Part shown: piece after piece, positions 2 to 22,654 of the stretch
How the letters are laid out: each line of letters opens with the position of its first letter
How positions within the stretch are numbered: position 1 is the first letter of the stretch
IMG/VR virus record: IMGVR_UViG_3300038463_000297
Span: 1-22,654 of that record
From: a virus
DNA length: 22,654 nt
Reading direction: 5' to 3' (one strand)
Translations under genes and position numbers: made by a program
The notes under the pieces: model-generated
Databases searched by the model: none
The model's input: only the letters and a program-made list of their open reading frames with translations
What the model was told of the DNA's origin: nothing

Positions 2-1327
2 GTCAACTTGAGGCCTGAGCAATTGACGCTCAATCAAGCGCATATCAACGCTGAAATGCCGCCTAGCATCTCGACGATTCAGCTTGGATGGAACGTTCAG
101 AACTGGTCTATCACATCCACGGCCGGCTCCGCGGCACTGCCCACCGGCATGTCGATTCCGTCCGCGGGCGGGACGGCGAGCTGGGGCACTCCCACCGTCG
201 CCTACGGGCCGACGACGATCAAGGTACAGGCGACCGATAGCGCAAATCCGCCGAACGTGATCACGAAGAATCTGTCGCTGACGATCGCGGCGGCCACCGG
301 CGGCACGCTGGCGCCTCCTCCCAACCTTTGGGCGACGAGTGTCGGGCAAACACCCTCGAACCTCGGCTCCACATCGATGCAAGGCTATGGCGGCGCGCTA
401 CCGGGTCCGGTCTTCGGTCTCGGTTGGCCGAATGTCAGCGGCAATACGGGCTACGCCATTTTCGTTTCGACGACGAGCAAAACCGGACCCTGGACGCAGA
501 TCGGCACCGTTGCTCAGAACGTCACCACCTACGTCGATCAGCCAGCGACGGGCTATGCGGGCGCGGTGAACTGCGTCAATCCGTACCCCGATGGGACGAA
601 CGACGGCATCTATCAGACCAACTCCGCGGGCTTGTATTTTCCGGGGAGTCCGCGTTGGTACGCCGTCGCGACGATCAACGCGAATGGAACGGGCGCGCTC
701 AGCGGCACGCAAAAGCAATACATCGTTTACGGTGGCAGCGCAGTCGGTGGAACGATCAACCCGAGCATTCATGCGTCGCAGTCCGGTGGCAACGGATGCT
801 TTAAGTGGTGGGGCGAGTTCAACGACACCAACGCATCGAACTGGCTGGTCAAGTCCTATAACAACTCAGCGGGTTCCGAGACCGGCAATTGCATCGCGCT
901 CCAGGGAACGAACGGCGGCAGCGTATTCCCGTACTGGTTGTGCGTCGCAGGTTGGATCTGTCCGGTCTTCGGGACGTGTGTCGCTGCGGCGGACTACCTG
1001 TACCTCGATCTGTACATCGCGCCGGGGGCTGGGCTTCGGCTGAAGATCTGGGGCGAGATCACGGGCGATACGCAGACGGCTCCTGGTTCCGACAATCCAA
1101 TCGCGCAGTTTGTGAACAATGGCGCGGGCGGAGCGATTCAGGAGGGTATTTACCAAACGTATCGCATTCCGAAGTCGTATTTTATGACCGGCAATGGTCA
1201 GGCGTCCGGGAACGGTCACTCGTGCCCGAACGGCATCCTGCAGACTGAGGCGTACAAATTCGGCATAAACATCGCGTCTGGATCGGCAAACGGTTGTCTC
1301 CTCGATAACGTGTACTGGGGAACCTGA
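2..1327 (+). CDS. Ig/FnIII/carbohydrate-binding-like phage surface protein (5' partial)
   Basis: The frame is open to the left edge. The first possible start is a TTG at 8 with no ribosome site before it, so the gene is probably cut by the window; residues below are counted from that TTG. Residues ~25-95 resemble a putative-Ig (He_PIG-like) fold: a LPTGMSI...GGTASWGTPT...ATDSANPP pattern. Residues ~103-245 look like a fibronectin-III-type domain preceded by a PPP linker. Residues ~250-439 are a beta-rich, cysteine-containing module (YLYLDLYIAPGAGLRLKIWG; ends LLDNVYWGT) resembling jelly-roll carbohydrate-binding modules. Domain assignments are by pattern only. A virion surface or adhesion role is inferred from this make-up and from the similar protein that starts 4 nt downstream. 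No catalytic motif was recognised. Confidence 0.6.
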   Translation, partial: VNLRPEQLTLNQAHINAEMPPSISTIQLGWNVQNWSITSTAGSAALPTGMSIPSAGGTASWGTPTVAYGPTTIKVQATDSANPPNVITKNLSLTIAAATGGTLAPPPNLWATSVGQTPSNLGSTSMQGYGGALPGPVFGLGWPNVSGNTGYAIFVSTTSKTGPWTQIGTVAQNVTTYVDQPATGYAGAVNCVNPYPDGTNDGIYQTNSAGLYFPGSPRWYAVATINANGTGALSGTQKQYIVYGGSAVGGTINPSIHASQSGGNGCFKWWGEFNDTNASNWLVKSYNNSAGSETGNCIALQGTNGGSVFPYWLCVAGWICPVFGTCVAAADYLYLDLYIAPGAGLRLKIWGEITGDTQTAPGSDNPIAQFVNNGAGGAIQEGIYQTYRIPKSYFMTGNGQASGNGHSCPNGILQTEAYKFGINIASGSANGCLLDNVYWGT

Positions 1328-6789: not shown

Positions 6790-8415
6790 GTGGCATCGAA
6801 GCCGAACTACTATCAGGTGCTCGCCGCAGCACTCGCTGACTTCGAGATCCACGGGTTCGATTCACAGGAGCGGCTCGATCACTGGCTCGATGAGCTGGAG
6901 GAAGCTGCGCGCGGCAGTTGGGTCGACGAGGAGACGATCAAGCGGGATCTGGTCAAGCACCTGCATACGGTGCTCGATCGTACCCTCAAAGGCCGCCAAT
7001 TCTCCAAGGCTCATGCCGGATTGCAGCCCTTTCGGCTTCAGCACATCAAGCCGAAGCTGCACGCGGAGTTGCAGAATCGGATCATCGCCTCGACCAACCT
7101 GATCAAGCTCAATCGCGCCGAGTCGATCGCGCGGGCTCGCGCTCGGCTCGCAGGCTGGATGTCCTCGATCCCGCCGGGAGGTAAAACCGGCGAGGATTTC
7201 AAGGAATCCACGAAGACCGTGCGGCGCGGGATTGCCGGGGAGACATTCATCGAACGGCGCGTGATCATCGATCAGGGGCATAAGTTGAATGCCGCGATCA
7301 ACGACATCGTGGCGGTCGACGGAGGCGCGATCATCGCCACCTGGCGCCATGTGCATCGAGGGCTGCCGAGCTATCACCCGCGCCCCGAGCACGTCGCTCG
7401 CGATGGAAAAGTGTTCGTGATCCCCGGCAACTGGGCGCTCAAGGAGGGACTGATGAAGCCTGCCGGGCATCAGTTCACCGATGAGATCGAACAGCCGGGC
7501 GAGTTTGTTTATTGCCTACCGGGAGACACGCGGATTCCATTCGCTGATGGTGTGCGTAAAGCGTATCGGCGATGGTATTGCGGTCAATTGACCGAGTTTG
7601 TTACGGCTTCTGGTAAAACGCTGCGCGCGACACCGAATCACCCAGTTCTTACGTCGAACGGATGGATTGCGTCGGGCGCGCTTCAAAAAGGCGATGATGT
7701 GATTGAAGTTGCCAGTAATGGCATCGATGTCACAAAAGTGATTAATGAAAATAGTGCAATACCCCGAATCTCGGAGATTTTTTGTGCGTTGAGCGAGACG
7801 GCAACTGTGGTGCGTAAGGTTGGAATTAGAGATTGGTTCCACGGCGATGGAATCGTCGATAGCGATGTCGATATTGTAAATACCGCAAGGCCGCTGATGT
7901 TCGGCTTGGAATCCATGAAGGCGAAGTTCGTTCAGCAATTCGACTTCTCCGATACCGATGATTTTGGTTTTCGTATTAGCGCGTTTTATTCCTTCATCGA
8001 GCGATGCGCGACTGCCACGGCGAGCCTCATGGGCCTTAGCGACCAGAAGTTGTTTTTCAGCGTCGCTCATGCGGGCGCTGCGCAGGAATCCCGCTTGGGA
8101 ATTGTTGCGCAATTTGAGCCCCATGTTTCTTGCCAGCACGCCTCGCGACACATTGAGTCGTTTAGAGATGCTCAGCAGGCTTTCCCCTTTGAGGTACGAG
8201 TTACGCGCATCGTTGATATCAAAAATCGGGCGTGGTCTGGGCATGTGTATAATCTCGAAACCAATAATTCTGCATATATAGCCGAAGGAATCGTAACCCA
8301 CAACTGTGGGTGTTCTTACGACTACGGATACAATTTGCGAGACTTGCCGCCCGACATGCTCACCGCAAAGGGCAAAGCAGAATTGGAAAGCGTCCGCGCG
8401 ACGATGGCGCTTTAA
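6790..8415 (+). CDS. MuF-like minor head protein, interrupted by an in-frame intein
   Basis: 541 codons from a GTG with no clear Shine-Dalgarno, 12 nt after the preceding stop. Flanking parts: residues 1-241 and 506-541 (277 residues once joined). The N-terminal helical part leads to a MuF-type C-terminal block (TWRHVHRGLPSYHPRPEHVA, VFVIPGNWALKEGLMKPAG), which ends in GEFVY-CGCSYDYGYNLRDLP after splicing. This protein type (SPP1 gp7/Mu F family) sits at the portal inside the prohead and commonly lies just after the portal gene, as here. The intein (residues 242-505) splits the block exactly before the first Cys of the C-x-C motif. Without splicing the motif is disrupted, so production of a working protein probably depends on splicing. 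Confidence 0.88.
   Translation: MASKPNYYQVLAAALADFEIHGFDSQERLDHWLDELEEAARGSWVDEETIKRDLVKHLHTVLDRTLKGRQFSKAHAGLQPFRLQHIKPKLHAELQNRIIASTNLIKLNRAESIARARARLAGWMSSIPPGGKTGEDFKESTKTVRRGIAGETFIERRVIIDQGHKLNAAINDIVAVDGGAIIATWRHVHRGLPSYHPRPEHVARDGKVFVIPGNWALKEGLMKPAGHQFTDEIEQPGEFVYCLPGDTRIPFADGVRKAYRRWYCGQLTEFVTASGKTLRATPNHPVLTSNGWIASGALQKGDDVIEVASNGIDVTKVINENSAIPRISEIFCALSETATVVRKVGIRDWFHGDGIVDSDVDIVNTARPLMFGLESMKAKFVQQFDFSDTDDFGFRISAFYSFIERCATATASLMGLSDQKLFFSVAHAGAAQESRLGIVAQFEPHVSCQHASRHIESFRDAQQAFPFEVRVTRIVDIKNRAWSGHVYNLETNNSAYIAEGIVTHNCGCSYDYGYNLRDLPPDMLTAKGKAELESVRATMAL
7516..8244 (-). CDS. Putative Vsr-like (EDxHD) homing endonuclease, antisense within the intein
   Basis: The frame is open on the minus strand from 8301 to 7516. 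I choose the ATG at 8244 (MPRPRPIFDIND), giving 242 residues; a weak GAG lies 9-11 nt upstream. Residues ~16-42 look like an HTH-type DNA-binding segment (YLKGESLLSISKRLNVSRGV). A basic linker follows (RSARMSDAEKQLLVAKAHEA), then a nuclease core: Glu100 in GEVELLNEL, Asp126 in IYNIDIAID, Glu136 in IAVE, and His146...Lys155 in HHSCRLAQRTKNLRDSGY. This order matches Vsr-like homing endonucleases as I know them. The GG-x-WH segment that usually follows AVE is not recognisable (PISNSNLTH), so activity could be impaired. Its codons lie exactly opposite the intein codons, and its TAG stop is opposite intein codon 2. It would cleave intein-free alleles to drive homing (inference). Confidence 0.72.
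   Translation of the reverse strand: MPRPRPIFDINDARNSYLKGESLLSISKRLNVSRGVLARNMGLKLRNNSQAGFLRSARMSDAEKQLLVAKAHEARRGSRASLDEGIKRANTKTKIIGIGEVELLNELRLHGFQAEHQRPCGIYNIDIAIDDSIAVEPISNSNLTHHSCRLAQRTKNLRDSGYCTIFINHFCDIDAITGNFNHIIAFLKRARRNPSVRRKNWVIRCRAQRFTRSRNKLGQLTAIPSPIRFTHTISEWNPRVSR
8275..8303 (-). promoter_or_regulatory. Possible sigma70-type promoter for the antisense endonuclease gene
   Basis: Read on the minus strand, TTGTGG (8303-8298) and TATATA (8280-8275) are separated by exactly 17 nt. The predicted transcript would begin about 25 nt upstream of the ATG at 8244. Both boxes are imperfect (3/6 and 4/6 to consensus). The whole element lies inside the intein's last codons, so the mobile unit would carry its own promoter. 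This is a pattern match only. Confidence 0.3.
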
Positions 8416-13000: not shown

Positions 13001-14152
13001 CCCGTGGAGGAGTACGACCCGGAGGCCGAAGCGCGCCGCCGGACGGAGCTTCGCGAGATGCGCGGCGACTCGGTGCGCGCGGACGATTACAACCCAGATG
13101 AGCCCAGAAAGCCCGCGGGCGAGCAAGGCGGCGGAGAGTGGACGGGCAAGGGCGCAATCTCGGTGCCGACGGACATCGAGGCGGCGGACTTCGACACGCA
13201 TCGCACCATCGAGGCAGGAGCGGAGAATTCCAAGTTCGATCACGATCAGGCCGAGATCAATCGGAAACTCGACGGCGTCGATCACGAATTTATTCAGAAG
13301 AACAAGAGCGAAAAATCCGCCGATCTGATGGTGGACGTCGATGTGGATGACCGCATGGTGAAACATCAGGTCACACTCGATCTGACGACTCGGCTTAAGG
13401 ACAAGCCGGAATTTCAGTCGCTCAAACTCGCCTTCGAGACGATGAACGGGCAACAGGCGGGGGCAGCTGGACACCCGGAACCCGGTAGCATCGGAAGCCT
13501 TGAATCGTACTTGCTCAGCGAGTGGGCAGGCACTTCCGGCGATTCGAGTTACCCGTCTTGCGCCATGCAATGGGCCGCTCAAGAGCTATTCGGGATGCCG
13601 GAGCCGAAAGTGAGCTGGACCTCGATGGACAGCACCAAATACGGTGGCATGAAGGATGTGCTTGAGAAAACGAAGATTTATTTCGGCGCGAGCAAGATGA
13701 CGATGGATCAGTTCAAGAAGGGGCTGATGCAGTACATCCAGGCGATGTACGACAACACGCAAGAGCTGTTGAAAAAACAAGGCATCAAGGAGATTCCGCT
13801 GGTGCGCGGCATGGTGCTCGGCGGTCGTGGGGCACTCGCACCGACATTGGTGGATTTGAAGATGCAGCCGATCAGCGCGTTTTCCTTGAGTTATCCGGTT
13901 GCGAGGGATTTCGCGGGCACCCAAACGCATGGAATACTCGTGTTCACGAAGGTTCCCGCGAAGCGGGTTTTGAGCACGTATCTGTCCGGCTATGGATGCC
14001 GCTCCGAGCACGAAGTGACGGTCCTTGGAGGTGCCCCAACGAAGGCGATCGTGGTCGGCAAATTCCCCCTTAGCCACTCAAAAGAAAATGACGGCTATAA
14101 CGGGGTGATCATCAGAAACAAGGATCGTCTCAAGGAGACTGTCGAATTATGA
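10010..14152 (+). CDS. 1380-codon polyvalent accessory protein frame ending in an ADP-ribosyltransferase-like domain
   Basis: Starts at ATG 10010 (ATGA overlap). Visible parts: a short N-terminal domain (1-57); linker (59-82); a domain with LQLTHYSNQAKLSVIDP and YYGLAVGEPGGY (~128-395); linker (454-478); a long low-complexity and helical region (~480-865, coiled-coil-like at 745-800); a domain with EVIKNPSPTQLANWVE and DIRWFADPGHGDIYCFDAS (~867-945); linker (1022-1048); and a C-terminal R-S-E ADP-ribosyltransferase pattern. That pattern has Arg1266 in LVRGM, Ser1292/Ser1294 in FSLSYPVARDFA, and Glu1333/Glu1335 in SEHEVTVLGG. Residues ~89-124 and ~400-453 look out of frame (poor third-position GC, Arg/Ala/Gly-rich), while another frame there looks coding. 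The native product may therefore be two or three proteins. A role as an internal virion or injected effector is inferred. Confidence 0.7.
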   Translation: MMGADASTVVTDTGMFQYRDADGIACDPSDAVQVYIHDFRTGGTMLAAIMAQEDQDNARADAYNPSEPRKGKGPGGGEWTSGAAAGASHDRNQSAGAGRSAGRGREAVSGAAARSVQGNGGVGAPPLRKDGKLQLTHYSNQAKLSVIDPAFYGSGIAGAEAFRKAKEPKNWVDRTYYGLAVGEPGGYRKEPGLGPYTYGVSVDPSMLYDLIGDPDHLRPRPAGSSINLYEKRIKQAGYLGYWVNHHSLGYTAAVFQPLKPEGRADLEEMRQLVEATKKNGGVSYQPLTHDSPKPGDEAYMVSPYPNRSEILDVAKLTPQQLSDYVMKNQDVLTKPDHYLGTWHDTEGTGKVFLDVSIKAPTPQEATKICIAQKQIAYFSFKDMHSHDVQPDKRTEWVPDAAAATADSAHPRSWRSSRAPGEYRRDVRAADRAHPDAAGDRAASRPSQGAGYRGVADDFDPNEPRVPKGGKGAGEWTAGSGQGGQRNLPLHRTYRAYDQEHEASAMAHRRERDADIERANQEANRRNRHHPPTQLSNLPKRPGYQTVAGRGVSLGGESLPLIKDKDTPTQISMVKGFEKTSAPYVVPPQPNYRISSGKWVTDPTDHTLSPSEYQRQNSNQIRLKGQPGMGGVTGQSIGDLPPNPSLWKGRAKPGYHGAEPHSIIEPEPADPHALSEVVGNLQFPQQGTDIGSGHWGHTGERAINSPGFVSESEPDPSRLGPDASKGWEHTARTEPYFGTDEMSLDARQSYWEKQARMWQREVGRLEYHEQADPERKAFAGDKMRAAAFLADRLQEEINERDKTLTPPPTPESSGASYDPDEDSDQSDRDSRIWDGDQISKDYGGPGVPNYDLSPMSAHAGNADWKKGEVKTVRVGKDGDWGHYTTDEIEVIKNPSPTQLANWVETQNDGKNTDIRWFADPGHGDIYCFDASLGWHIGPVQALGLSYHEAYLNSDNMTDAEHWPEQVEEYLDRWHNGDAWGRSELTTQEVDTLREKLAEPVEEYDPEAEARRRTELREMRGDSVRADDYNPDEPRKPAGEQGGGEWTGKGAISVPTDIEAADFDTHRTIEAGAENSKFDHDQAEINRKLDGVDHEFIQKNKSEKSADLMVDVDVDDRMVKHQVTLDLTTRLKDKPEFQSLKLAFETMNGQQAGAAGHPEPGSIGSLESYLLSEWAGTSGDSSYPSCAMQWAAQELFGMPEPKVSWTSMDSTKYGGMKDVLEKTKIYFGASKMTMDQFKKGLMQYIQAMYDNTQELLKKQGIKEIPLVRGMVLGGRGALAPTLVDLKMQPISAFSLSYPVARDFAGTQTHGILVFTKVPAKRVLSTYLSGYGCRSEHEVTVLGGAPTKAIVVGKFPLSHSKENDGYNGVIIRNKDRLKETVEL
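10184..10255 (+). repeat. Inter-domain linker motif, copy 1
   Basis: Residues 59-82 of the 1380-codon frame contain NPSEPRKGKGPGGGEWTSG. It is almost the same as copy 4 at 14233-14304 in protein, and similar in DNA (both contain a CCTCGCAAGGG core followed by a Gly-run and GAxTGGAC). Confidence 0.85.
10275..10451 (+). CDS. Candidate nested small gene (58 aa) in the +1 frame of the 1380-codon ORF
   Basis: ATG at 10275 is preceded by AGGAG at 10264-10268, a strong site at good spacing. The product begins MIETNPQAPDDPQDEDEKQF and continues QAQLQDLFKEMEES, an acidic amphipathic helix. By hand count its third positions from 10275 to ~10395 are about 80% G/C, against about 25% for the overlapping large frame there, so this frame looks like the coding one. 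Its last ~20 residues (Ser/Thr/Pro-rich, overlapping LQLTHYSN in the large frame) look like shadow sequence. That suggests translation would pass back to the large frame at about 10375 (GTGCCCCGCC), by a -1 frameshift or because a base is missing in this sequence. Confidence 0.5.
   Translation: MIETNPQAPDDPQDEDEKQFQAQLQDLFKEMEESVPRHFGKTANSSSPTTPIKPNSAS
11205..11372 (+). CDS. Candidate nested small gene (55 aa) in the +1 frame of the 1380-codon ORF
   Basis: From ATG 11205 the frame reads MPQQQQQIQHTLVPGAQAAR, then LENIVAMYERLTGRTLTPQE and IEQLRAHRKAQGIEE, ending at TAG 11370-11372. It looks like a small helical protein. By hand count about 80% of its third positions are G/C, against about 40% for the large frame over the same bases. 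An upstream in-frame ATG at 11169 is also possible. There is no strong ribosome site. The large frame resumes convincing sequence (VADDFDPNEPR linker) exactly where this frame stops, and there is no usable start codon between. Nested gene, frameshift or indel are the options. Confidence 0.45.
   Translation: MPQQQQQIQHTLVPGAQAARLENIVAMYERLTGRTLTPQEIEQLRAHRKAQGIEE
11369..11443 (+). repeat. Inter-domain linker motif, copy 2
   Basis: Residues 454-478 of the 1380-codon frame contain DPNEPRVPKGGKGAGEWTAG, the same EPR...G-rich...GEWT plan as copies 1, 3 and 4. Confidence 0.8.
13073..13153 (+). repeat. Inter-domain linker motif, copy 3
   Basis: Residues 1022-1048 of the 1380-codon frame contain NPDEPRKPAGEQGGGEWTGK. 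It lies directly before the ~330-residue ADP-ribosyltransferase-like part and follows a charged helix (EYDPEAEARRRTELREMRGD). Confidence 0.85.
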
Positions 14153-15228
14153 GCGAGCTGAACGTCGACGACTGCATCGAGAACGCCGACTGGATCAAGG
14201 CCGCTGCGAAACGTCGCGCGGCGGCGGCCTCTGCTCGCGCCGACTATGATGCCGGCGAGCCTCGCAAGGGTAAAGGGCCTGGCGGCGGGGAGTGGACCTC
14301 CGGCGGCGCAGGCGGCGCGAAAGGCGGCGATAAGCCGGTGCCTAAGTGGAGTGAGAATCTGCCGCACAAGGACCCGGCCGCATACTTCGGCGGCACCGAG
14401 ATCCTGCCCGATCAGTCCGGCGTCTATCACGTCGGCAAGAACTTGGATGCCGCGGTCGAACTCCTCGGGCGTGGCAAGGATGTGGATCTCGAACAGCCGC
14501 GCGAAGTCGCCACCCTCATGGATAAACTCGCCGCGATCGGCCGCGAGGCGGCTAAGGGAGTGAAAAGGGTGTACGACCTGTGCCACGTCACGGTCGCCAA
14601 TACGAACCTCTTTTGCGTCGAGCACGTCGGCATTCCGCGCGCCAAGATGCCGCAGTTGAAGGGCGTCCCCGCGAAGGGAAGCCGGGGGGCGGAGTTGGAG
14701 CCCAACAAAAAGGGCGAGGTGGACTTAAGCAAGCACTTCCGCCATCACCTGGAGAAGCACGGGTACGATGTGCTCAAGGCGACGGAGGATGCCTCCTACC
14801 TTCGTGCGAGCCAACGCGAACTCGATGGCGTCAAGATCGCCGGGATGATGCAGGCGATCAAGGAAGGCAAGGTCCCCGACAATCGGATATGGGTGACGCG
14901 CGACAACTACGTACTCGATGGGCATCACCGCTGGGCCGCGCAAGTTGCCCTCGAATACATCGAGGGCAAGCCCATCCCGATGAAGGTCTTCAAGGTCGAT
15001 ATGTCGATCACGGATGCGATCCGGGATGCGAATCATTTCGCCGCGAAGTGGGGCATCGCTCAGCAAGCGGTTGGAGCACCGAGTCCGAAGGCAAAAGCGG
15101 ATAGCGTCTGCACCTCCTGCGGCGCAGGCGTGCGCTCGGATTCGAGCGACTTATCGAAGGTCGATGAGATCCTCACGCACCTGAAGGCCGGAGAGATTCT
15201 CTCGGAACTTAAGAAGTTCGAGAAGTGA
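14149..15228 (+). CDS. ParB-like nuclease-domain protein with N-terminal linker motif
   Basis: 359 residues, ATGA overlap with the previous gene. Residues 1-28 are an Ala/Arg-rich helix, and 29-52 are the EPRKGKGPGGGEWT linker. The body has VYDLCHVTVANTNLFCVEHV and IPRAKMPQL (~141-170), then HLEKHGYDV, and a ParB/sulfiredoxin-fold signature NRIWVTRDNYVLDGHHRWAA (245-264) with DGHHRW at 257-262. In this superfamily that motif contributes to nucleotide or phosphate chemistry; phage members are often annotated as ParB-like nucleases. A single CTSCG knuckle sits near the C-terminus (321-325), followed by a short helix. It is the last gene of the accessory block and overlaps the head-protease gene by 4 nt. 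Substrate unknown; DNA nicking or NTP-dependent modification are both possible. Confidence 0.75.
   Translation: MSELNVDDCIENADWIKAAAKRRAAAASARADYDAGEPRKGKGPGGGEWTSGGAGGAKGGDKPVPKWSENLPHKDPAAYFGGTEILPDQSGVYHVGKNLDAAVELLGRGKDVDLEQPREVATLMDKLAAIGREAAKGVKRVYDLCHVTVANTNLFCVEHVGIPRAKMPQLKGVPAKGSRGAELEPNKKGEVDLSKHFRHHLEKHGYDVLKATEDASYLRASQRELDGVKIAGMMQAIKEGKVPDNRIWVTRDNYVLDGHHRWAAQVALEYIEGKPIPMKVFKVDMSITDAIRDANHFAAKWGIAQQAVGAPSPKAKADSVCTSCGAGVRSDSSDLSKVDEILTHLKAGEILSELKKFEK
14233..14304 (+). repeat. Inter-domain linker motif, copy 4
   Basis: Residues 29-52 of the ParB-like protein contain AGEPRKGKGPGGGEWTSG, matching copy 1 at 10184-10255 over most positions. It is at the N-terminus here, after a short basic helix. 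Confidence 0.85.
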
Positions 15229-15944
15229 GCGAGTTTCGGCTTAACGAGGAACACGACCGCGCGTTGTGGGTGCCATACGAGGCGGCCCTGGAGACGATGG
15301 ATCTGCACCCGGGCGTGCGCGTGGCGCTGGAGCGCGCCGACATGACCGAGATGGACATCGCGAAGGCGATCAGAGACAGCGATCTTGCCTCCCCGGTGCG
15401 CTTCGGAAACGTGCTCCTCATCGCGCTTCGTATCACGGGAACCGGCGCAAGTTACCGCAAGAACGCGAACGAATACGTGTGGCGAGATCCCTCGCTCTAC
15501 ATGAATCGGGAATTCGTCGAGCGGTGCAATGGGCTTCCGGTGATCCTGGAGCACCCCGGCACCGGCGAGAAGAACGGGGAGAAAAAGCAGTTCCTCGACT
15601 CAAAAGAGTTCAAGGATCGCATCGTCGGCATGGTCATGCTGCCGTACCTCGTGCCGGAGGATAACGAAGTGTGGGGGATTGCGCGCATCTACGATGATGA
15701 GACAGCGCGCATTTTATGCACACGAGATGTATCCACCTCCCCCTGCGTCGTGTTCAAGACCGGCGAGGAAGGGGTGAAACTACCAATGGAGGATGGCAAT
15801 CATCTGCTGATCGAGGATAAGCCCGGCCTTCTCGATCATCTTGCGATCTGCGAGCTGGGAGTGTGGGACACCGACGGCGTGCCCGCCGGAGTCGATAACG
15901 AGAGTGCACGATCTGATTCTTTCACCCAACCACTGAGGATATGA
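15225..15944 (+). CDS. DUF2213-type phage head protein, putative capsid maturation protease
   Basis: 239 residues from a GTG overlapping the previous stop. The pattern matches DUF2213: LRITGTGASYRKNANEYVWR, NREFVERCNGLPVILEHPG, DRIVGMVMLPYLVPEDNEVW, ILCTRDVSTSPCVVF and LLDHLAICELGVWD. Proteins of this family sit just before scaffold and capsid genes and are often taken as prohead proteases. Candidate catalytic residues would be the conserved His in LEHPG (His154-region of the alignment is not assigned here), the Ser in STSP and the His in LLDHLAI, but no mechanism is proven by this sequence. Its stop overlaps the scaffold-like gene's first ATG. The family assignment is firm and the function is moderately likely. 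Confidence 0.8.
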   Translation: MSEFRLNEEHDRALWVPYEAALETMDLHPGVRVALERADMTEMDIAKAIRDSDLASPVRFGNVLLIALRITGTGASYRKNANEYVWRDPSLYMNREFVERCNGLPVILEHPGTGEKNGEKKQFLDSKEFKDRIVGMVMLPYLVPEDNEVWGIARIYDDETARILCTRDVSTSPCVVFKTGEEGVKLPMEDGNHLLIEDKPGLLDHLAICELGVWDTDGVPAGVDNESARSDSFTQPLRI

Positions 15945-15946
15945 CA

Positions 15947-16765
15947 ATGCCTGAGCCAGTAAAAACTCCTGAAGCACCCCAAGCGGCTGCTCCAGGCGCC
16001 GGAAACGAGGGTACTGCGGAGGGAAAGCTCGACGCGATCCTCGGTCATGTACGCGGATTGCACGCTAAGCACGACTCGCTGTGCGGGCGTATGGATGCCA
16101 TCGAGGCGAAGGTGAACGGCAAGCCGGGTGAGCCCGCGCAAGCCGGAGCACCGGCCGCCGCGACCGGCGAACCCGCTCCCGCCACTTCCATCGCAGCCGA
16201 TGCGGGAATGCCGCCCGGCTTGAAAAAGGACGAGCCCATGAAGGACGAACCGAAGGAGGCCACCGCAATGGCCGATTCCGCAACCGCCGCCTCGCTCGAC
16301 ACCATCCGCAAGGAAGTGGCCGCGCTCGGCGCTCGCATCCCCGCTCCCGTCGCGGAGGAAGATCGCAAGCTCTTTATCGCCGCGCAGATGCGCTGCGAGC
16401 CGGTCGCTCAAGCCTTTGCCGACAGCGCGCCCGCGCCGCTCTCCGGTGAGACGCTCACCGAGTACCGCACACGCCTCGTTAACAAGTTCAAGCCCAACAG
16501 CTCGCGCTGGAAGGACGTGGAACTCTCCGGCATGAGCGGGACACTGCTCGATCAGGTCGAGGCGCAGATCTACGCCGACTCGATGGCAGCCGCTCTCAAT
16601 CCGGCATCGCTCCCGAATGGGATGCTGATCGAGGTGAAAGATACCGATCGCGCCGGTCGCACGATCTCCAAGTTCCGCGGAGACCCGGAAGCGGTGTGGG
16701 GACGATTCAAGGCGCAGCCGCGTCTGATCAGCAACGTCACCATGCGATTCGGTCACGGCATCTAA
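15947..16765 (+). CDS. Scaffold-like head assembly protein
   Basis: Two in-frame ATGs exist, at 15941 and 15947. TGAGGA at 15934-15939 is only 1 nt from the first but 7 nt from the second, so I choose 15947 (272 residues). The N-terminal ~110 residues are Ala/Pro/Glu-rich, with a helix (DAILGHVRGLHAKHDSLCGR). The C-terminal half is better structured (EEDRKLFIAAQMRCEPVAQA, LVNKFKPNSSRWKDVELSGM, ALNPASLPNGMLIEV). Placement between the putative protease and the decoration/capsid genes, low complexity and predicted helix fit a scaffold or assembly protein, an inference. A strong internal start at 16268 could give a second, shorter product. Confidence 0.72.
   Translation: MPEPVKTPEAPQAAAPGAGNEGTAEGKLDAILGHVRGLHAKHDSLCGRMDAIEAKVNGKPGEPAQAGAPAAATGEPAPATSIAADAGMPPGLKKDEPMKDEPKEATAMADSATAASLDTIRKEVAALGARIPAPVAEEDRKLFIAAQMRCEPVAQAFADSAPAPLSGETLTEYRTRLVNKFKPNSSRWKDVELSGMSGTLLDQVEAQIYADSMAAALNPASLPNGMLIEVKDTDRAGRTISKFRGDPEAVWGRFKAQPRLISNVTMRFGHGI
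16253..16765 (+). promoter_or_regulatory. Internal ribosome site and in-frame start giving a 165-aa C-terminal product
   Basis: AAGGAGG at 16253-16259 is a near-perfect Shine-Dalgarno, 8 nt before the in-frame ATG at 16268. It is stronger than the gene's own site. Initiation there would give a 165-residue product (MADSATAASLDTIRKEVAAL...) ending at 16765, lacking the Ala/Pro-rich N-terminus. Nested in-frame scaffold products are known in other phages (lambda C/Nu3). Confidence 0.5.
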
Positions 16766-16805
16766 TCGCCCACTCATTCACCGATCACTTTTCTAGGAGA
16801 ATTCG

Positions 16806-17414
16806 ATGGCTCTACCAACCTTCAACCCCATGCAGGTGACGAACGCTGCAGGGACCTTCTACGCGCAAAGCACCGGATATGTATCCGGTGTGATGCTCGA
16901 CGATCCGGCCGTGCGGTTTGCAATCGACCAGGGCATCAATACCCCGGGCGGAAGCGCCGTGCTTTATGGCGGCATGGCGATCACCGAATCCGGCATCACG
17001 CCAGGAACGGAAGTCGGCTCCGTCATGTCGGTGCTCGCGCCCGCCTCGGCGGAGACGAACATCACCGGGTTCACGGTGTTCAACCAGTCCTCGGCACTCA
17101 TTCAAACGCCGCAGTCTCCGGTGCCGATCGCCCCGCCCTCGGGCTTCATCAACTTCTGCCGATTGGGGTCCGGTGCGCGCATCGTCGTCCCCGTCTCGGC
17201 GGTCGATGCCGCCGCGATGCAGGGCCAGCCGGTCAATCAGCTCGTGTACTGGGACTACACCAATCAGGTCCTGCTGCACAACGCGGGCGGGACGGCAATC
17301 CCGGTTAAGGTGCTCGATATCAACGTCGGCAACAGCCAGGTTCCCTCGTACAGCTCGGGCACCGGGTTCTATACCTGGAACTACACGGGTTCGAGCGCCG
17401 TCATCCAGATCTGA
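16806..17414 (+). CDS. Putative capsid decoration/head-stabilising protein
   Basis: 202 residues with AGGAG at 16795-16799, well placed for ATG 16806. The protein is small and beta-rich, with Gly/Ser/Thr-rich strands and few charges. It begins MALPTFNPMQVTNAAGTFYA, then YVSGVMLDDPAVRFAIDQGI, with a central ITPGTEVGSVMSVL segment and a C-terminus of FYTWNYTGSSAVIQI. It sits immediately before the major capsid gene, the usual place for a capsid cement or decoration protein, and both have strong independent ribosome sites, as expected for products made in hundreds of copies. No specific family motif was recognised, so the role is inferred from position, size and composition. Confidence 0.7.
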   Translation: MALPTFNPMQVTNAAGTFYAQSTGYVSGVMLDDPAVRFAIDQGINTPGGSAVLYGGMAITESGITPGTEVGSVMSVLAPASAETNITGFTVFNQSSALIQTPQSPVPIAPPSGFINFCRLGSGARIVVPVSAVDAAAMQGQPVNQLVYWDYTNQVLLHNAGGTAIPVKVLDINVGNSQVPSYSSGTGFYTWNYTGSSAVIQI

Positions 17415-17468
17415 TCTGTCACCCAGGTCGGTTTTTTTTAACCTCAACGTCAATCAGGAGCATTTTCA

Positions 17469-18503
17469 ATGGCTGCACTACCAACCGAATGGGTGATGGC
17501 ACATCCGAATTTCGAGGAGCCGGACATCATCCTTCAGCAGAATCAGGCGTCCGGCGCCTTCGAGACGCTCGCCGGGGGCAATCCCCGAACGAAGATCGGT
17601 CCCGAAGATAAGTACGTCTACACGACCCGTCTCGATGTGCGAACCCGCGCGAAAACCGGAGCTGCCGGTGGCAACATGCTGCCGAGTTGCCAGGTCGTTC
17701 CGAGTAAGGTCAGCGTTCCGACGTATCTTCAGCAATGCCGCGCTGAGTACGATCATCACGACATCGCGAATGCGAACGCCTGGGGCATCAACCTGCCCGA
17801 AGCGCAGCGCCTTGCGATGCGCCAGGCGCACTTTCAGGGTCTTCGCGATCGTCTGCTCTACGGGGTGAACCCTGGCAACGGCGAGGGATTGCTTCATGCG
17901 AATGGGGCGACCTCGATCAATTTGCCGCAAGACCCATACGGCAACACGACCGCCTCGACCTACGATCCGGGTTCGATGGCGCTCTTTATGGTCACGCAGT
18001 TCTCGGCCACGAAGACGCGCACGTATCAGCTCGGGACGCCGCGCAAGTTCACGATCCTGGGGCCGCAGCGCATCCTCTCGCAGTTCGAGTATCAGGGCAT
18101 CGTGCAACTGACCACCTACCAGCGCGCAGGCGCGGGCACGGCGTCGGTCGCAAAGATGACCGAGGATATCGCGACCTGGAACGGCGATGAAGTGAACTGG
18201 GTGTACGACGATACGTTGATCGGACAGGGCGCCTCATTCGGCGCATTCGCATCGACCGATGTCGTTCTGATCGTGATGCCGGAGATCAAGGTGCCTCGCA
18301 TGAGCGGCATCAACACCAACGAGTTCGGCAAGCTCACCCCGGGCTTCAATGACTGTACCGTCATGTACACCGACATGGCGGCCCCGATGGAGATCCCGAC
18401 GCCGCTGGCGGGCGGAGCGATCGATATCCTCTCCGAGATGCGCGCAAGTCCCGGCTGGGGCGTTCGACCCGAAGCGATCACCATCATCAACATGCCTCAC
18501 TAG
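17469..18503 (+). CDS. Major capsid protein (DUF2184-like)
   Basis: 344 residues, a typical HK97-fold capsid length, from ATG 17469 with AGGAG at 17456-17460. Patterns typical of DUF2184 capsid proteins: SVPTYLQQCRAEYDHHDIAN, then LPEAQRLAMRQAHFQGLRDR with LLYGVNPGNGEGLLHANGAT (a reporter-like LxG..GxxGLLN element), a central GTPRKFTILGPQRILSQF segment and a C-terminal ASPGWGVRPEAITIINMPH. No N-terminal delta-domain is obvious, consistent with use of a separate scaffold protein. The gene is set off by its own leader, with a T-run (17431-17438) before it and a strong hairpin after it, which would allow higher expression than its neighbours. Confidence 0.87.
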   Translation: MAALPTEWVMAHPNFEEPDIILQQNQASGAFETLAGGNPRTKIGPEDKYVYTTRLDVRTRAKTGAAGGNMLPSCQVVPSKVSVPTYLQQCRAEYDHHDIANANAWGINLPEAQRLAMRQAHFQGLRDRLLYGVNPGNGEGLLHANGATSINLPQDPYGNTTASTYDPGSMALFMVTQFSATKTRTYQLGTPRKFTILGPQRILSQFEYQGIVQLTTYQRAGAGTASVAKMTEDIATWNGDEVNWVYDDTLIGQGASFGAFASTDVVLIVMPEIKVPRMSGINTNEFGKLTPGFNDCTVMYTDMAAPMEIPTPLAGGAIDILSEMRASPGWGVRPEAITIINMPH

Positions 18504-18521
18504 CTCACAGGGGCATTTTCA

Positions 18522-18584
18522 ATGCGTTCGCCAATAGCCCTCCGGCGTGGTGCCGGAGGGTGTCTCTCAAGGAGTGTCTTATGA
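18522..18584 (+). other. Possible 20-codon leader ORF coupling the capsid gene region to the next gene
   Basis: ATG 18522 opens a 20-codon frame (MRSPIALRRGAGGCLSRSVL) that stops at TGA 18582-18584, overlapping the next gene's ATG at 18581 (ATGA). The GCATTTTCAATG before and including this start is identical to the sequence at the capsid gene start (17460-17471). It could be a coupling leader or simply the remnant of a duplicated start region. Confidence 0.3.
18538..18560 (+). terminator. Strong 9-bp hairpin after the major capsid gene
   Basis: CCCTCCGGC (18538-18546) and GCCGGAGGG (18552-18560) form a perfect stem with a 5-nt loop, GTGGT. No T-run follows (TGTCTCTCAA), so it is not a classic intrinsic terminator. 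It may protect the 3' end of the capsid message or act as a weak attenuator. The AAGGAG of the next gene begins 9 nt after it. Confidence 0.6.
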
Positions 18585-19114
18585 AACTGTTTATCGCGAA
18601 TACCTCGAAGCAGCATCACATCTTTGCCTACCGAATGGGCAAGGGTCGCGATGTGCCGGTCTCCTATCAGACGATTCCTGTGGGCTCTCAGATCCAGGTT
18701 GGGAATTCCGATCTGAACAAGGAAACCGTGGACTTCATCATCCACCAGCACGCGCGATACGGAATGCGATCGGCTGACGATCTTGCAAAGAATGCCGACT
18801 ACATCGGGCTTGTCTACTCGATCGACAAGCAGGTGCCGATGGGCGATAAGTTCATCGAAACGGCGGAGGATCTGAACGCGACGGCTCTCAACCGCATCGC
18901 AAGCGATCAGCGCGAGCAAAGCGCCGCGGCGGCCGGAGTGCTTCTGGAAAATGCGGTCGCAGGCACGAAGACCTCGCTCGCTCACGCTGAGATCGTCGTC
19001 ACGCAGGAAGGTGATGCAGGCGTCGTCTCGCAAGGGGTGGAGATCGTGCCGGAGGGGAAAGTTCCGCGCAATAACCCATCGCGCGATCGTCGGGCGGTCG
19101 GCCGTCGCCGGTAG
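18581..19114 (+). CDS. Conserved-type head operon protein of unknown function, 177 aa
   Basis: ATG 18581 has AAGGAG at 18569-18574 (6-nt spacing). An upstream in-frame GTG at 18560 lies in the hairpin and is less likely. The product begins MKLFIANTSKQHHIFAYRMG, then SYQTIPVGSQIQVGNSDLNK and VDFIIHQHARYGMRSADDLA. It has a helical middle (NATALNRIASDQREQSAAAA) and a strongly basic C-terminus (NNPSRDRRAVGRRR) that could contact DNA. I know similar proteins only as uncharacterised genes downstream of phage capsid genes. A role in head completion, or as a minor capsid-associated protein, is plausible from position alone. Confidence 0.75.
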   Translation: MKLFIANTSKQHHIFAYRMGKGRDVPVSYQTIPVGSQIQVGNSDLNKETVDFIIHQHARYGMRSADDLAKNADYIGLVYSIDKQVPMGDKFIETAEDLNATALNRIASDQREQSAAAAGVLLENAVAGTKTSLAHAEIVVTQEGDAGVVSQGVEIVPEGKVPRNNPSRDRRAVGRRR

Positions 19115-19120
19115 CCCATC

Positions 19121-19648
19121 ATGCCTTTCACCAATCCAGCGGTGCCGAATATCCCGGATTATCTTACGTTCCTCTATGGGACGGTGGGGATTCCTCCGGC
19201 GAATCTGCCATACGGGTCGCTGGACATTTCGAGCGCATCGGTGACGATCGATAACACGGGGTACACCATCGACTACACGGGGCCTGTCGCCTCGTGGATC
19301 GTGCCCACCTCGCTTCAGATCGCCTTCAACTGGGTGAACACGCAGCTTGCCTGCGCGGGGATCTACGCGATTGCCTGCTACAACCTCGCGGCGGATTTTC
19401 TGCTGAACCTTGCACCCGACGTGCCGGATCAGACGTACTTCAAGGATGAGCGCGCGAAGCTAAAACTCATGGTCCCGCAACTCGGCATCATCCAGTCTTC
19501 CTCGAACGAGGGTAGCTCCGCTTCCTTCACCGCGCTTGAGTGGGCATCTCGCCTCACGATGTTCGACCTCCAGCGGCTGAAGACGCCCTATGGACGGGCG
19601 TACCTGGAGATGGCGCAGCAGGCGGGCACGCTATGGGGACTCACTTGA
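19121..19648 (+). CDS. Putative head-tail adaptor / neck protein, 175 aa
   Basis: ATG 19121, six nt after the previous stop, with no strong ribosome site. The helical core VPTSLQIAFNWVNTQLACAG ... YAIACYNLAADFLLNLAPD, followed by YFKDERAKLKLMVPQLGIIQ and a C-terminal TPYGRAYLEMAQQAGTLWGL, is a pattern seen in uncharacterised proteins two or three genes after the capsid gene in related phages. Position and size fit the adaptor (gp6-like) of the head-tail interface. The stop TGA shares its last base with the next ATG (TGATG), implying translational coupling. Confidence 0.68.
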   Translation: MPFTNPAVPNIPDYLTFLYGTVGIPPANLPYGSLDISSASVTIDNTGYTIDYTGPVASWIVPTSLQIAFNWVNTQLACAGIYAIACYNLAADFLLNLAPDVPDQTYFKDERAKLKLMVPQLGIIQSSSNEGSSASFTALEWASRLTMFDLQRLKTPYGRAYLEMAQQAGTLWGLT

Positions 19649-20097
19649 TGATCCTGAACTTAGGGGTCGTCGATCAGCCGTACCGGGCAAATGGCTCCCG
19701 CAAGCCATCGACGCGCATTCTCGGCATCACCACCGGCCAGGTGGCGAAGATCCTGGAGGATCGCTACGGGATCATGGAGGCATACTACGAACGCCACGGA
19801 CGGGAGATCGCGAAGTCGTTCTCCAACTCCCTCTCCGGCGGCATCGAGTCGCTTCTGGCGGGTCATCGAGTCGATCCATTCGGTAAAGCGATGCAGGAGA
19901 TCCGTCAAGGATTTCGCGATTTCATTATGAAGCAGGAAATCGAGTCGATGGGCCTTCGAGGCGTGCCGACGAAGGCCGCACTCAAGGGCATCAATCATCG
20001 TTTGAGGCACCCGTACCGAAAGTCGAACCCGCGTCGACCCTCGTTCGTCGACACCGGATTGTATGTGGCGTCGTTTCGCGCCTGGATGGAGTTATAG
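19648..20097 (+). CDS. Putative neck / tail-completion protein, 149 aa
   Basis: I choose ATG 19648, which overlaps the preceding stop as TGATG. An earlier in-frame ATG at 19540 would add 36 residues of out-of-frame-looking Gly/Pro/Ala sequence inside the preceding gene. The product is mixed alpha/beta and basic: ITTGQVAKILEDRYGIMEAY, then REIAKSFSNSLSGGIESLLA, RQGFRDFIMKQEIESMGLRG, and a C-terminal RRPSFVDTGLYVASFRAWME. Size, basic charge and position after the adaptor fit a head-closure or tail-completion protein. No named family was recognised. Confidence 0.65.
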   Translation: MILNLGVVDQPYRANGSRKPSTRILGITTGQVAKILEDRYGIMEAYYERHGREIAKSFSNSLSGGIESLLAGHRVDPFGKAMQEIRQGFRDFIMKQEIESMGLRGVPTKAALKGINHRLRHPYRKSNPRRPSFVDTGLYVASFRAWMEL

Positions 20098-22654
20098 ATG
20101 CGCCGATTATTCCTCGCCGCTTCATTGATACTCGCAAGCTCCGCCGTCGGAGCGCAGCAGCTTTTGGATTGCGCGCTAGGCGTGCCGTGCCAGAACAATG
20201 GGCCGACCGACAGCAACACGGGCGATAAACTGCCCGTCGTCGGCACGAAGATGAACGCGAACATGCAGGAGGTGTTCGGCGCTTTCGGAGCGAATGGGTT
20301 GCTGCGCGGCAACGGGCCGCTGCCAGGTCCCCTTTCGGTCGCGACCTCGCAGGATGTCGTGAACGTCTTCAGCGTCGCGGGACCGCAATGCGTCACGGGC
20401 GACTTTCTTTCGGCGACCGGGCAGTGCCTGGTGCCCCCGGGGACCGGGATCACCGCCTTGGGCGGAGATGCAACGGCGACCGGGCCGGGCGAGGCGTTCC
20501 TGACCCTAGCCCCCGTGATGCCGAATTTCGGCACCTACGGGGGCGCCTCTCAGGCGCTCACCATCACCGTCGATGTCAAGGGGCGGGTGACGAATCTATC
20601 CGCGCAGGCGATCTCTGTGAGCGTCGCGCAGGTGTCCGGGGCCGCCCCATTGAATTCCCCGGCCTTCACCGGCACTCCGACCGGGCCGACCCCGCTTTCC
20701 GGGGACGACAGCACCAGGCTGGCAACAACGGCCTTCGTGGCTGGCGCGATCTCGGGCCTGACAGCGGACCCGTCAGGGCCTGCCAGCGGCGATCTGTGCG
20801 GCACCTATCCAAGCCCACAGGTCTGCCAGATCAACGGTTCTGCGCCTCCTGCGAGCGCCTCTGTGGTGGGTACGAATAGCGCCCGGCAGTTGGTTCCGGT
20901 GTCCGTCACCGGCTCCGGGAGCCTGGTGTTATCCACCTCTGCGGCGCTCACCACCCCGGACTTAGGGGTGCCGACCGCCCTAAACCTGCAAAACGCCACC
21001 AACCTGCAGGCGAATATCGTCCCGAACAACTCGGCCAATACCACGGGCAACGCCGCAACGGCGACCCTGGCGGCCACGGCAACCGCGCTCGCAGGCACCC
21101 CAAGCCTCTGTTCCACCAATAACGTCGCAGTCGGTATCCACCCCTCGGGGAACGCCTATTGCGAGCAGCTGTCGGCCGCAAACCTCTCGAACGGCACCAC
21201 CGGCATCAGCGGCGGCGCGATCGTGCTCTCGACCTCGCCCACCTTGACGACCCCCAACCTGGGGACCCCCTCGACCCTGAATCTACAGAACGCCACAAAC
21301 CTTCAGGCATCGATCATCCCGAATAACGCCGCGAACACGACGGGCACTGCGGCTAACGCCACCGGAGTCAACGGCGCGTCCGTATCAGCGTCCGCGCCGG
21401 TTGCCGCGACGAACAGCAGTGGACAGATTATCGCGGCGACGACCACCGGCTCAGGCACGACGGCCGTGCTATCCGTCTCGCCTGCGCTGACGGGAACGCC
21501 GACGGTGCCGACCGCTGCCGTGGGCACGAACACGACGCAGGCCGCCTCGACGGCATTCGTGCTGGCGAACGCAGGCGGCGGGGGCGGAGGATCGCCTACG
21601 GGCTCCGCAGGGGGCGATTTGAGCGGCACCTATCCGAATCCCGGAGTGGCGAGATTAAACGGCGTTGCTCCGCCCACAGGCGCTGTGGTGGTCAGTACGA
21701 CGGGAGGCGCGAGTCCGACGTTGCAGGCGGCGCCGACTTCCGGCGGAGGATCTACGGTTCTCCTGCAGAACTCGCCCACGCTGGTAACTCCGAATCTCGG
21801 GACGCCCAGTGCTATCAACCTGTCGAACGCCACGGCCTTACCCTCTGCCGCGCTACCCGCCACCATCGCGGCGAATACGACAGGCAATGCCGCCACTGCG
21901 ACCACCGCGACCACGGCGAGCCAACTGAATGGACTTGCGCCACCGACTTCGGCAACTGTCGTAGGCACGAATTCTAGTGGTCAGTTGATAGCGCAGACTG
22001 GCACGATCAGCAATAACACCACGGGAAATGCGGCAACCGCGACCACGGCGAATCAACTGAATGGCAATACTCCCGGAGGCTCGTGCACGAATCAAGTCGT
22101 GACCTCCTTGAGCAACTCCGCGGTGCCTACGTGTTCGACGGTCACATCAACGCAGACCGACACGACGCTTGCGAAAACGGGAACCGACATCAACACGACG
22201 AATCAGGTCGTATTGACGCACCTCACGTCCTCTCTGCCCGTGACTCAAGGCGGAACGGGCGTGACTACGTTATCTGCGGGACTCGTGACTGCCGCAGGGA
22301 CGACCGCATTCAGTACGGTGGCGGCGCCGTCGAGCACAGTGGTGGGAGTGTCCGACACACAGACACTGACGAATAAATCGATTAGCGGCAGCGCGAATAC
22401 GCTGTCAAATATCACTGCTAACAACGTGCAGCTCGGCAACCTCTCAACCGGCACCACAACTCCGAGCGTCACCACAAGCTGGCTCTACAACGCCTCTACG
22501 CTGACGGGTACGCCGACCTTCTTCGGCACGCCCAATCGTTCTTCTCCCTATTGGAGCCTCGTCACGAGCAGCGAGGCGTGCCCCAATACGGGCGTAGGCG
22601 CGACCGGCCTCTGCACGATTCGCGAGGATTACTTGAAGCTCGTCAGCGGCTGGG
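20098..22654 (+). CDS. Repetitive tail fibre protein with an N-terminal signal peptide (3' partial)
   Basis: ATG 20098 directly follows the previous stop; GGAG is at 20088-20091. The frame is open through the right edge (852 codons so far). Residues 1-~20 (MRRLFLAASLILASSAVGAQ) form a textbook Sec signal peptide with cleavage near AVGA-QQ, unusual for a phage fibre. The rest is Thr/Ser/Asn/Ala-rich fibre sequence: PAFTGTPTGPTPLSGDDSTR, RLATTAFV, GGDLSGTYPNPGVARLNGVA, and LPVTQGGTGVTTLSAGL near the visible end. Three ~125-nt repeats with LTTPNLGTPSTLNLQNATNL are embedded. These motifs are common in proteobacterial phage side or tail fibres that bind host surface glycans. The receptor-binding tip lies beyond the window. 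Confidence 0.88.
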   Translation, partial: MRRLFLAASLILASSAVGAQQLLDCALGVPCQNNGPTDSNTGDKLPVVGTKMNANMQEVFGAFGANGLLRGNGPLPGPLSVATSQDVVNVFSVAGPQCVTGDFLSATGQCLVPPGTGITALGGDATATGPGEAFLTLAPVMPNFGTYGGASQALTITVDVKGRVTNLSAQAISVSVAQVSGAAPLNSPAFTGTPTGPTPLSGDDSTRLATTAFVAGAISGLTADPSGPASGDLCGTYPSPQVCQINGSAPPASASVVGTNSARQLVPVSVTGSGSLVLSTSAALTTPDLGVPTALNLQNATNLQANIVPNNSANTTGNAATATLAATATALAGTPSLCSTNNVAVGIHPSGNAYCEQLSAANLSNGTTGISGGAIVLSTSPTLTTPNLGTPSTLNLQNATNLQASIIPNNAANTTGTAANATGVNGASVSASAPVAATNSSGQIIAATTTGSGTTAVLSVSPALTGTPTVPTAAVGTNTTQAASTAFVLANAGGGGGGSPTGSAGGDLSGTYPNPGVARLNGVAPPTGAVVVSTTGGASPTLQAAPTSGGGSTVLLQNSPTLVTPNLGTPSAINLSNATALPSAALPATIAANTTGNAATATTATTASQLNGLAPPTSATVVGTNSSGQLIAQTGTISNNTTGNAATATTANQLNGNTPGGSCTNQVVTSLSNSAVPTCSTVTSTQTDTTLAKTGTDINTTNQVVLTHLTSSLPVTQGGTGVTTLSAGLVTAAGTTAFSTVAAPSSTVVGVSDTQTLTNKSISGSANTLSNITANNVQLGNLSTGTTTPSVTTSWLYNASTLTGTPTFFGTPNRSSPYWSLVTSSEACPNTGVGATGLCTIREDYLKLVSGW
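20941..21900 (+). repeat. Three dispersed ~125-bp coding repeats in the tail fibre gene
   Basis: Copies at about 20941-21066, 21238-21363 and 21775-21900 encode L-T-TP-x-LG-x-P-x-x-LNLQNAT-x-L...NTTG-x-A-x-A. The first two are closest (NLQNATNLQANIVPNN / NLQNATNLQASIIPNN). Shorter partial copies of the NNTTGNAATATT and QLNG segments follow at about 22012-22075. They probably encode repeated shaft segments and could recombine. Confidence 0.75.

Follow-up and report, generated by a model that had tools for sequence, protein, structure and literature searches.

A fibre-like phage protein with a predicted Sec signal peptide and paired cysteines, encoded beside the head genes and probably distinct from the main tail fibre

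Gene layout of the window and the kind of phage

The window, by which we mean the whole stretch of DNA analysed here, corresponds to an IMG/VR virus record 22,654 bases long, whose genes and features are collected in Table 1. Its major capsid protein shares 41-55% identity with those encoded in 14 records of named phages, including Pantoea phage PdC23 (Certevirus), the Yersinia vB_YenM phages, Klebsiella phages Chronis and Roth, Shewanella phage QDWS and E. coli phage Rac-SA53. The capsid gene is followed by phrog_6737, phrog_6356 and phrog_6560, the order found in the Certevirus/Chronis/Rac-SA53 kind. In the five relatives examined, the next two genes after phrog_6560 encode ~310 aa and ~440-465 aa; the second of these, annotated as hypothetical, we take to be the tail sheath. 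Tail fibres, in those relatives with such an annotation, sit later, 3' of baseplate and DUF2612-type genes. The window differs from these relatives in having a fibre-like ORF immediately 3' of phrog_6560.

Table 1. Features of the window discussed in the text (positions are those of the window)
Feature	Position	Strand	Remarks
Terminase large subunit	3560
Portal	4969
NUDIX-domain gene	8754
Major capsid protein	17469..18503	+	phrog_6671, weak PF09950; marker used for finding the phage kind
Upstream gene phrog_6560 (149 aa)	19648..20097	+	abuts the fibre-like ORF; conserved 3' of the capsid gene in this phage kind
Shine-Dalgarno GGAG	20088..20091	+	read from the sequence; 6 nt 5' of the ATG
Fibre-like ORF with leader	20098..22653	+	ATG start; 852 aa seen, 3' end past the window
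Predicted Sec signal peptide MRRLFLAASLILASSAVGA	20098..20154	+	residues 1-19; predicted signal peptidase I site before QQ
Cys pair 1 (C25, C31)	20170..20190	+	mature N-terminal module LDCALGVPCQ...TGDKL..VGTKMNANMQEVF; resembles L245
Cys pair 2 (C98, C110)	20389..20427	+	CVTGDFLSATGQC, paired-Cys form of the FLRGDGTW-type repeat
Cys pair 3 (C234, C243)	20797..20826	+	within GDLCGTYPSPQVCQING
Cys pair 4 (C338, C355)	21109..21162	+
Cys pair 5 (C663, C679)	22084..22134	+	SCTNQVVTSLSNSAVPTCS
Cys pair 6 (C828, C839)	22579..22614	+

Among 77 loci with non-identical capsid genes in which both capsid and sheath are visible (11 duplicates dropped), an extra ORF of at least 300 aa separates the two in six, and one of these six (L030) carries a leader. 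Leader-bearing genes occupy the same place in the window and in L164, L173 and L145, loci on which the sheath is not visible. A consensus scan of window positions 16700-20400 gave no sigma-70-like promoter, which fits, but does not prove, co-transcription of the fibre-like ORF with the capsid genes.

Intervening elements were also seen in these genomes. A gene with an intein splicing domain (window 6790-8415, plus strand) lies between the portal and NUDIX genes, and in L239 the gene 5' of the leader-bearing fibre also has an intein/Hint domain. ORFs of ~250 aa found between the presumed sheath and tube genes (L034:14312-15076, L035:14269-15021 and L036:14269-15021) are presumably GIY-YIG homing endonucleases, judging from a motif recognised by eye.

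A predicted signal peptide at the start of the fibre-like ORF

The original prediction had described a clear signal peptide in front of a tail fibre protein. Signal prediction was run with a rule-based scorer of our own, used for all leaders reported here, and not with SignalP. The leader passes: it has a positively charged n-region (RR), a hydrophobic core and an A-x-A-like site (V-G-A before Q) with the small residues at -3 and -1 expected of a Sec substrate of signal peptidase I. Only 0.19% of 20,000 random N-termini drawn from the fibre's own composition reach its score. The leader rule is passed by 4.6% of shuffled versions of residues 2-30, because these residues are hydrophobic in composition, and by 57 of 2048 called genes of at least 100 aa in loci of same-kind phages, 32 of them at the window's score. 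With these leader features, a score above chance, the GGAG ribosome site and an ATG that directly abuts the stop of the upstream gene, the signal peptide is confirmed as a feature of the sequence.

The A-x-A-like site is directly followed by Gln in 36 of 47 leader-bearing fibres, a figure set against only 7 host-gene controls; when the site was chosen by a procedure blind to Gln, the +1 residue was Gln in 21/57 fibres vs 0/5 controls. A cleavage site followed by Gln is also the pattern of the Bacteroidetes Q-rule, yet Burkholderia phage Bm1, QDWS and the prophages L131 and L135 have proteobacterial hosts. Leaders were seen on another gene of the region as well, a small conserved one located before the sheath (L029:11411-11818 and L130:13457-13888) whose relatives start without a leader; leaders may have been gained on other genes of the late region too.

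Fibre repeats and paired cysteines

Residues 154-222 of the fibre-like protein match four tail fibre families (phrog_2631, 454, 7032 and 22682; E 1e-10 to 8e-8), and no Pfam match was found for the protein. A search of named phages with the fibre gave no match at E 1e-5, the N-terminal 201 aa retrieved only generic repeats from viral contigs, no PDB relative was found by sequence, and the AlphaFold model of the N-terminal part had a mean pLDDT of 39.

The mature part seen, which is cut by the window end, contains 12 Cys in six close pairs, the even and paired arrangement typical of disulfide-bonded exported proteins. The largest gap within a pair is 17 (P = 2.5e-5 under random placement). One repeat is present twice, as GDLCGTYPSPQVCQING with two Cys and in a later copy, GDLSGTYPNPGVARLNG, without either; therefore, the pair is gained or lost together. 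The repeats had been described as otherwise standard, which holds for the tail fibre matches at residues 154-222 but not for the six close Cys pairs, absent from ordinary copies. The pairing of the cysteines and the two-copy repeat led us to suspect disulfides and export, which were then tested on other phages.

Leaders and paired cysteines occur together in other phages

Viral contigs were scanned for two forms of one repeat, using patterns that fix the same number of bases, C....[FY]L.GDG.C (paired-Cys, 32 stretches) and [FY]L.GDGTW (Trp, at least 119 stretches, 80 loci listed). A first count of ORFs with complete 5' ends, duplicates included, gave 19 paired-Cys ORFs with a leader and 5 without; L235 and L263 among these five have a leader by eye, and L243, L262 and L266 are not fibres. 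In the Trp set, the 67 ORFs among the matches listed included 5 with a leader and 2 more that gain one from an alternative start. The recount used one procedure for both sets, dropping identical ORFs, ORFs without a 5' end and ORFs below 150 aa (L243 and L262, chance matches, among them). L266 was rejected as a fibre by eye, and 19 of the 20 recounted paired-Cys ORFs were also read by eye. Allowing any start codon, the leader was found in 19/20 paired-Cys fibres vs 8/61 Trp fibres among the matches listed (P = 2.6e-11), and with ATG and a high score in 17/20 vs 7/61, again among those listed (Fisher P = 2.2e-9), P values that are optimistic because the sequences are related by modular exchange and the counts are not independent.

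Outside the motif, Cys content was also higher in the paired-Cys fibres (median 1.22% vs 0.39%, P = 5e-5). Several of the eight leader-bearing Trp-type fibres listed have few Cys; hence, leader and cysteines are not inseparable. A survey of generic fibre repeats gave 104 loci with matches, 91 leaderless, 7 without a 5' end and 6 flagged for a leader; the six flagged leaders were judged false by eye (internal start codons). The leader is therefore rare on such repeats in general. In whole bacterial genomes, the paired-Cys pattern occurred in 0/8, 5/385 and 4/369, near the reversed-pattern control and counted at untranslated loci; this comparison adds no support.

The same association was examined in an unrelated domain, the C-terminal 57 aa with two Cys common to L030 and Bm1 (TVATLPTCN...PVYCNG.AW). 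A scan for this domain gave 35 loci. A profile run over 24,218 ORFs then yielded 27 distinct proteins that have both Cys and a 5' end, of which 25 had a leader (22 from the called start and 3 from another start), and the remaining two also gain one once other starts are allowed. Two domain proteins have a single Cys: BcepF1.012 is leaderless, and L461 is leaderless by its called start and has a leader from another start, so that the Cys-poor side of this comparison is nearly empty. A third module, searched by regular expression, gave 3 sequences only, with no controls.

Disulfide-bonded chains tend toward an even number of cysteines. The mature Cys count was even in 16/16 complete paired-Cys fibres and in 26/28 leader-bearing proteins with the C-terminal domain (22/24 minus the four whose sole Cys are the domain pair), which combined gives 42/44 leader-bearing fibres (P = 5.6e-11) or, with the smaller set, 38/40 (P = 7.5e-10). 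Among the matches listed, the Trp-type fibres that lack a leader and have two or more Cys split into 14 even and 13 odd; for 42/44 vs these 14/27, P = 2e-5. Two of the 44 are odd, and so, outside both sets, are a further L164 gene with 11 Cys and a G007 gene with 9. The three L164 proteins have 11, 6 and 10 Cys (the 10 already counted in the repeat set), and the G007 trio has 18, 9 and 6 (the 18 already counted there). Taken together, pairing, even counts and the link to the leader are the sequence signature of proteins that are exported and disulfide-bonded.

In nine genomes, a leader-bearing gene besides the tail fibres

The original prediction took the ORF to be the tail fibre of the phage, a premise that is probably wrong: in nine genomes examined that have recognisable ordinary tail fibres (G001, G002, G007, QDWS, L237, L244, L249, L260 and Bm1), the leader-bearing gene is additional. 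Three of them, G001 (the record of L164), G002 (L030) and G007 (L241), belong to the window's phage kind, and each encodes baseplate J and DUF2612. Their leaderless fibres have 342 aa (G001), 737 aa (G002) and 362 aa (G007), and to these are added three leader-bearing genes in G001, one in G002 and three in G007. The window gene lies directly 3' of phrog_6560 and not 3' of baseplate genes, the place of the separate fibres of its relatives (3' of baseplate J/DUF2612).

In L237 and L244, the leader-bearing gene is 3' of the tail fibre genes (PHROG match), and the gene order is the same in L249 and L260. Elsewhere, it is next to an SU10-type adaptor gene (L254) or preceded by a GDSL lipase and the head closure protein Hc3 (L238). 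A search of named phages with four more leader-bearing fibres found no leader-bearing relative for three, and the fourth (L030) led to Bm1. This phage has two tail fibres at 24.7-27.9 kb; the gene with the leader, surrounded by small ORFs, occupies 60.1-63.1 kb, 30 kb from the tail fibre locus. Bm1 is called strictly lytic in an excerpt of its description (PMC12003559), and therefore lysogenic conversion is not needed. We also considered whether the leader-bearing genes are host genes caught in the contigs, and rejected it: those whose position was mapped have phage genes around them, and many directly adjoin late genes.

At the other end of the window, a partial ORF 5' of the terminase (2-1327, plus strand) encodes 8 Cys and what may be an Ig domain (He_PIG). 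In a single comparison, the Ig part was similar to the gene with a leader at L164:15017-16729 (E 1e-4), and the product of the partial ORF, whose start is outside the window, may be a second exported protein.

A proposed exported accessory fibre or spike

Phage fibres are normally assembled in the cytoplasm, and the original prediction correctly saw that a leader on a fibre conflicts with this. Its sequence makes it very probable that the product of the window ORF is exported, and the product probably works outside the cell interior, not as an ordinary tail fibre assembled in the cytoplasm. The best reading, to which we give a probability of roughly 0.55, is that of a Sec-exported, disulfide-stabilised accessory fibre or spike that would act on the host envelope or at release. 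As read from the sequence, the leader would route this fibre-like protein via the host Sec system and be removed by signal peptidase I. In the oxidising periplasm, the paired Cys would close hairpin-like disulfides, as suggested by their pairing, their even number and their link to the leader. Going by gene order only, the protein would be made together with the virion genes, the main tail fibre being encoded separately in the relatives. It would most likely act on the host envelope, where its target would be a receptor or a surface polysaccharide, reached from within the periplasm or, once the protein is released, from outside. The least certain step is that this binding might protect the progeny from superinfection or from sticking to debris. 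Superinfection control is a possible role; the candidates are blocking of receptors, as by T5 Llp, attachment to virions once the cell has lysed, and binding or degradation of polysaccharide, for which the beta-helix bodies speak, and the sequence does not decide among them.

Two other explanations do without effective export. An anchor, an inefficient leader and export to block or decorate receptors were the three ways out originally offered, and real export is favoured because paired, even Cys track the leader in two unrelated domains. A hydrophobic N-terminus acting as membrane or virion anchor, or a leader so inefficient that most of the protein stays in the cytoplasm, would agree with the usual place of fibre assembly and is improbable, since the recurrent A-x-A-type site with its Gln (36/47) is needless for an anchor and even, paired cysteines speak against both variants. 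It is even harder to believe that a downstream start is used and the leader never made. In-frame starts that remove it do exist, a TTG at codon 23, preceded by GGAG at a distance of 11 nt, and the ATGs of codons 52 and 56, which lack a good ribosome site, but the ATG at 20098 has the better ribosome site and abuts the upstream stop, and many divergent relatives retain leaders ahead of different bodies.

The alternative that shares export with our reading is that of a virion part: a fibre folded and disulfide-bonded in the periplasm would attach to the particles once the contents of periplasm and cytoplasm mingle at lysis, and would serve them as an extra receptor-binding spike or a head or neck fibre. 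The gene usually sits among late structural genes, with head-tail connector or tail fibre genes for neighbours (the window, G001, G002, G007, QDWS, L237, L244, L254 and L238), which suits this, as do the fibre repeats of the window protein and the beta-helix/pectate-lyase-like body of L030 and QDWS. We nevertheless regard it as rather unlikely, since no single anchor module is common to the mature N-termini and the Bm1 gene is distant from virion genes; it is this position in Bm1 that makes us prefer an envelope role. To our knowledge, no tailed phage loads a Sec-exported fibre, and no assembly route outside the cytoplasm was found described for tailed phages in the literature searched.

Beyond the window, a bolder and less likely reading is that many tailed phages make, besides their ordinary fibres, an exported kind in which the usual modules are combined with disulfide hairpins and a Sec leader. 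Such fibres would fold in the periplasm and then either be exposed on the surface of the dying cell or attach to virions during lysis, by a route outside the cytoplasm. An odd leader thereby becomes a testable class, and the leader and paired-Cys signature offers a simple sequence test separating two kinds of fibre. If fibres are routinely exported, many "tail fibres" of environmental phages would not be virion receptor-binding proteins, which would affect host-range prediction. Loading outside the cytoplasm, if it occurs, would be a step of tailed phage assembly so far overlooked.

Comparison with known systems

No description of leader-bearing, disulfide-paired fibres was found in the full-text literature, a search outside which most subscription papers fall. 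Exported phage proteins of other types are known. The superinfection-exclusion lipoproteins T5 Llp and Cor are, like the predicted product of the window, phage proteins exported to the envelope; in the portion of the source seen, the llp gene adjoins that of the receptor-binding protein and an intramolecular disulphide is mentioned (PMC9586334). Llp, a lipoprotein, is small and has its Cys at position +1, whereas the window protein has at least 852 aa, Gln at +1 and no lipobox Cys at the cleavage site. Lom of lambda, a phage-encoded envelope protein with a signal peptide, has its gene between tail spike and fibre genes according to an excerpt (PMC12309495), but is a beta-barrel outer-membrane protein and not a fibre. 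The Nixviridae of Porphyromonas gingivalis, as far as the source extract goes (PMC10367356), carry genes without a known function whose leaders have Q directly behind them; their hosts are Bacteroidetes, and in that extract the genes are not called fibres. Phage endolysins with signal peptides also exist, as stated in parts of two reports (PMC6116005, PMC8951688).

Closer likenesses come from two named phages. Like the window ORF, CDS_0099 of Bm1 (WVR18150.1) has a leader (MKKLVSALLLFAASVGVLA, followed by QN), a fibre-like body (1001 aa) and mature Cys, 10 in number; Bm1 is, however, another kind of phage, and its gene lies off the tail fibre locus. In Shewanella phage vB_Sb_QDWS, the ORF of 687 aa at 14004-16067 of OK094664.1 (minus strand; L463:3505-5568) is a longer form of UEP18758.1, the annotated start of which is 269 codons too late, and therefore the signal peptide is missing from the annotated protein; start-site annotation may strip leaders from fibres. 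QDWS shares with the window the kind of capsid, a leader (MIKKILLTALLVPAMALA, followed by QT) and paired Cys, including CSTSSSALTYTSGTGFAC, with 8 in the mature protein, and its leader-bearing gene adjoins the annotated tail fibre gene. It differs in its pectate-lyase-like beta-helix body (below the curated cut-off) and in the position of the gene, which is 3' of the tail fibre in QDWS and 5' of the tail genes in the window.
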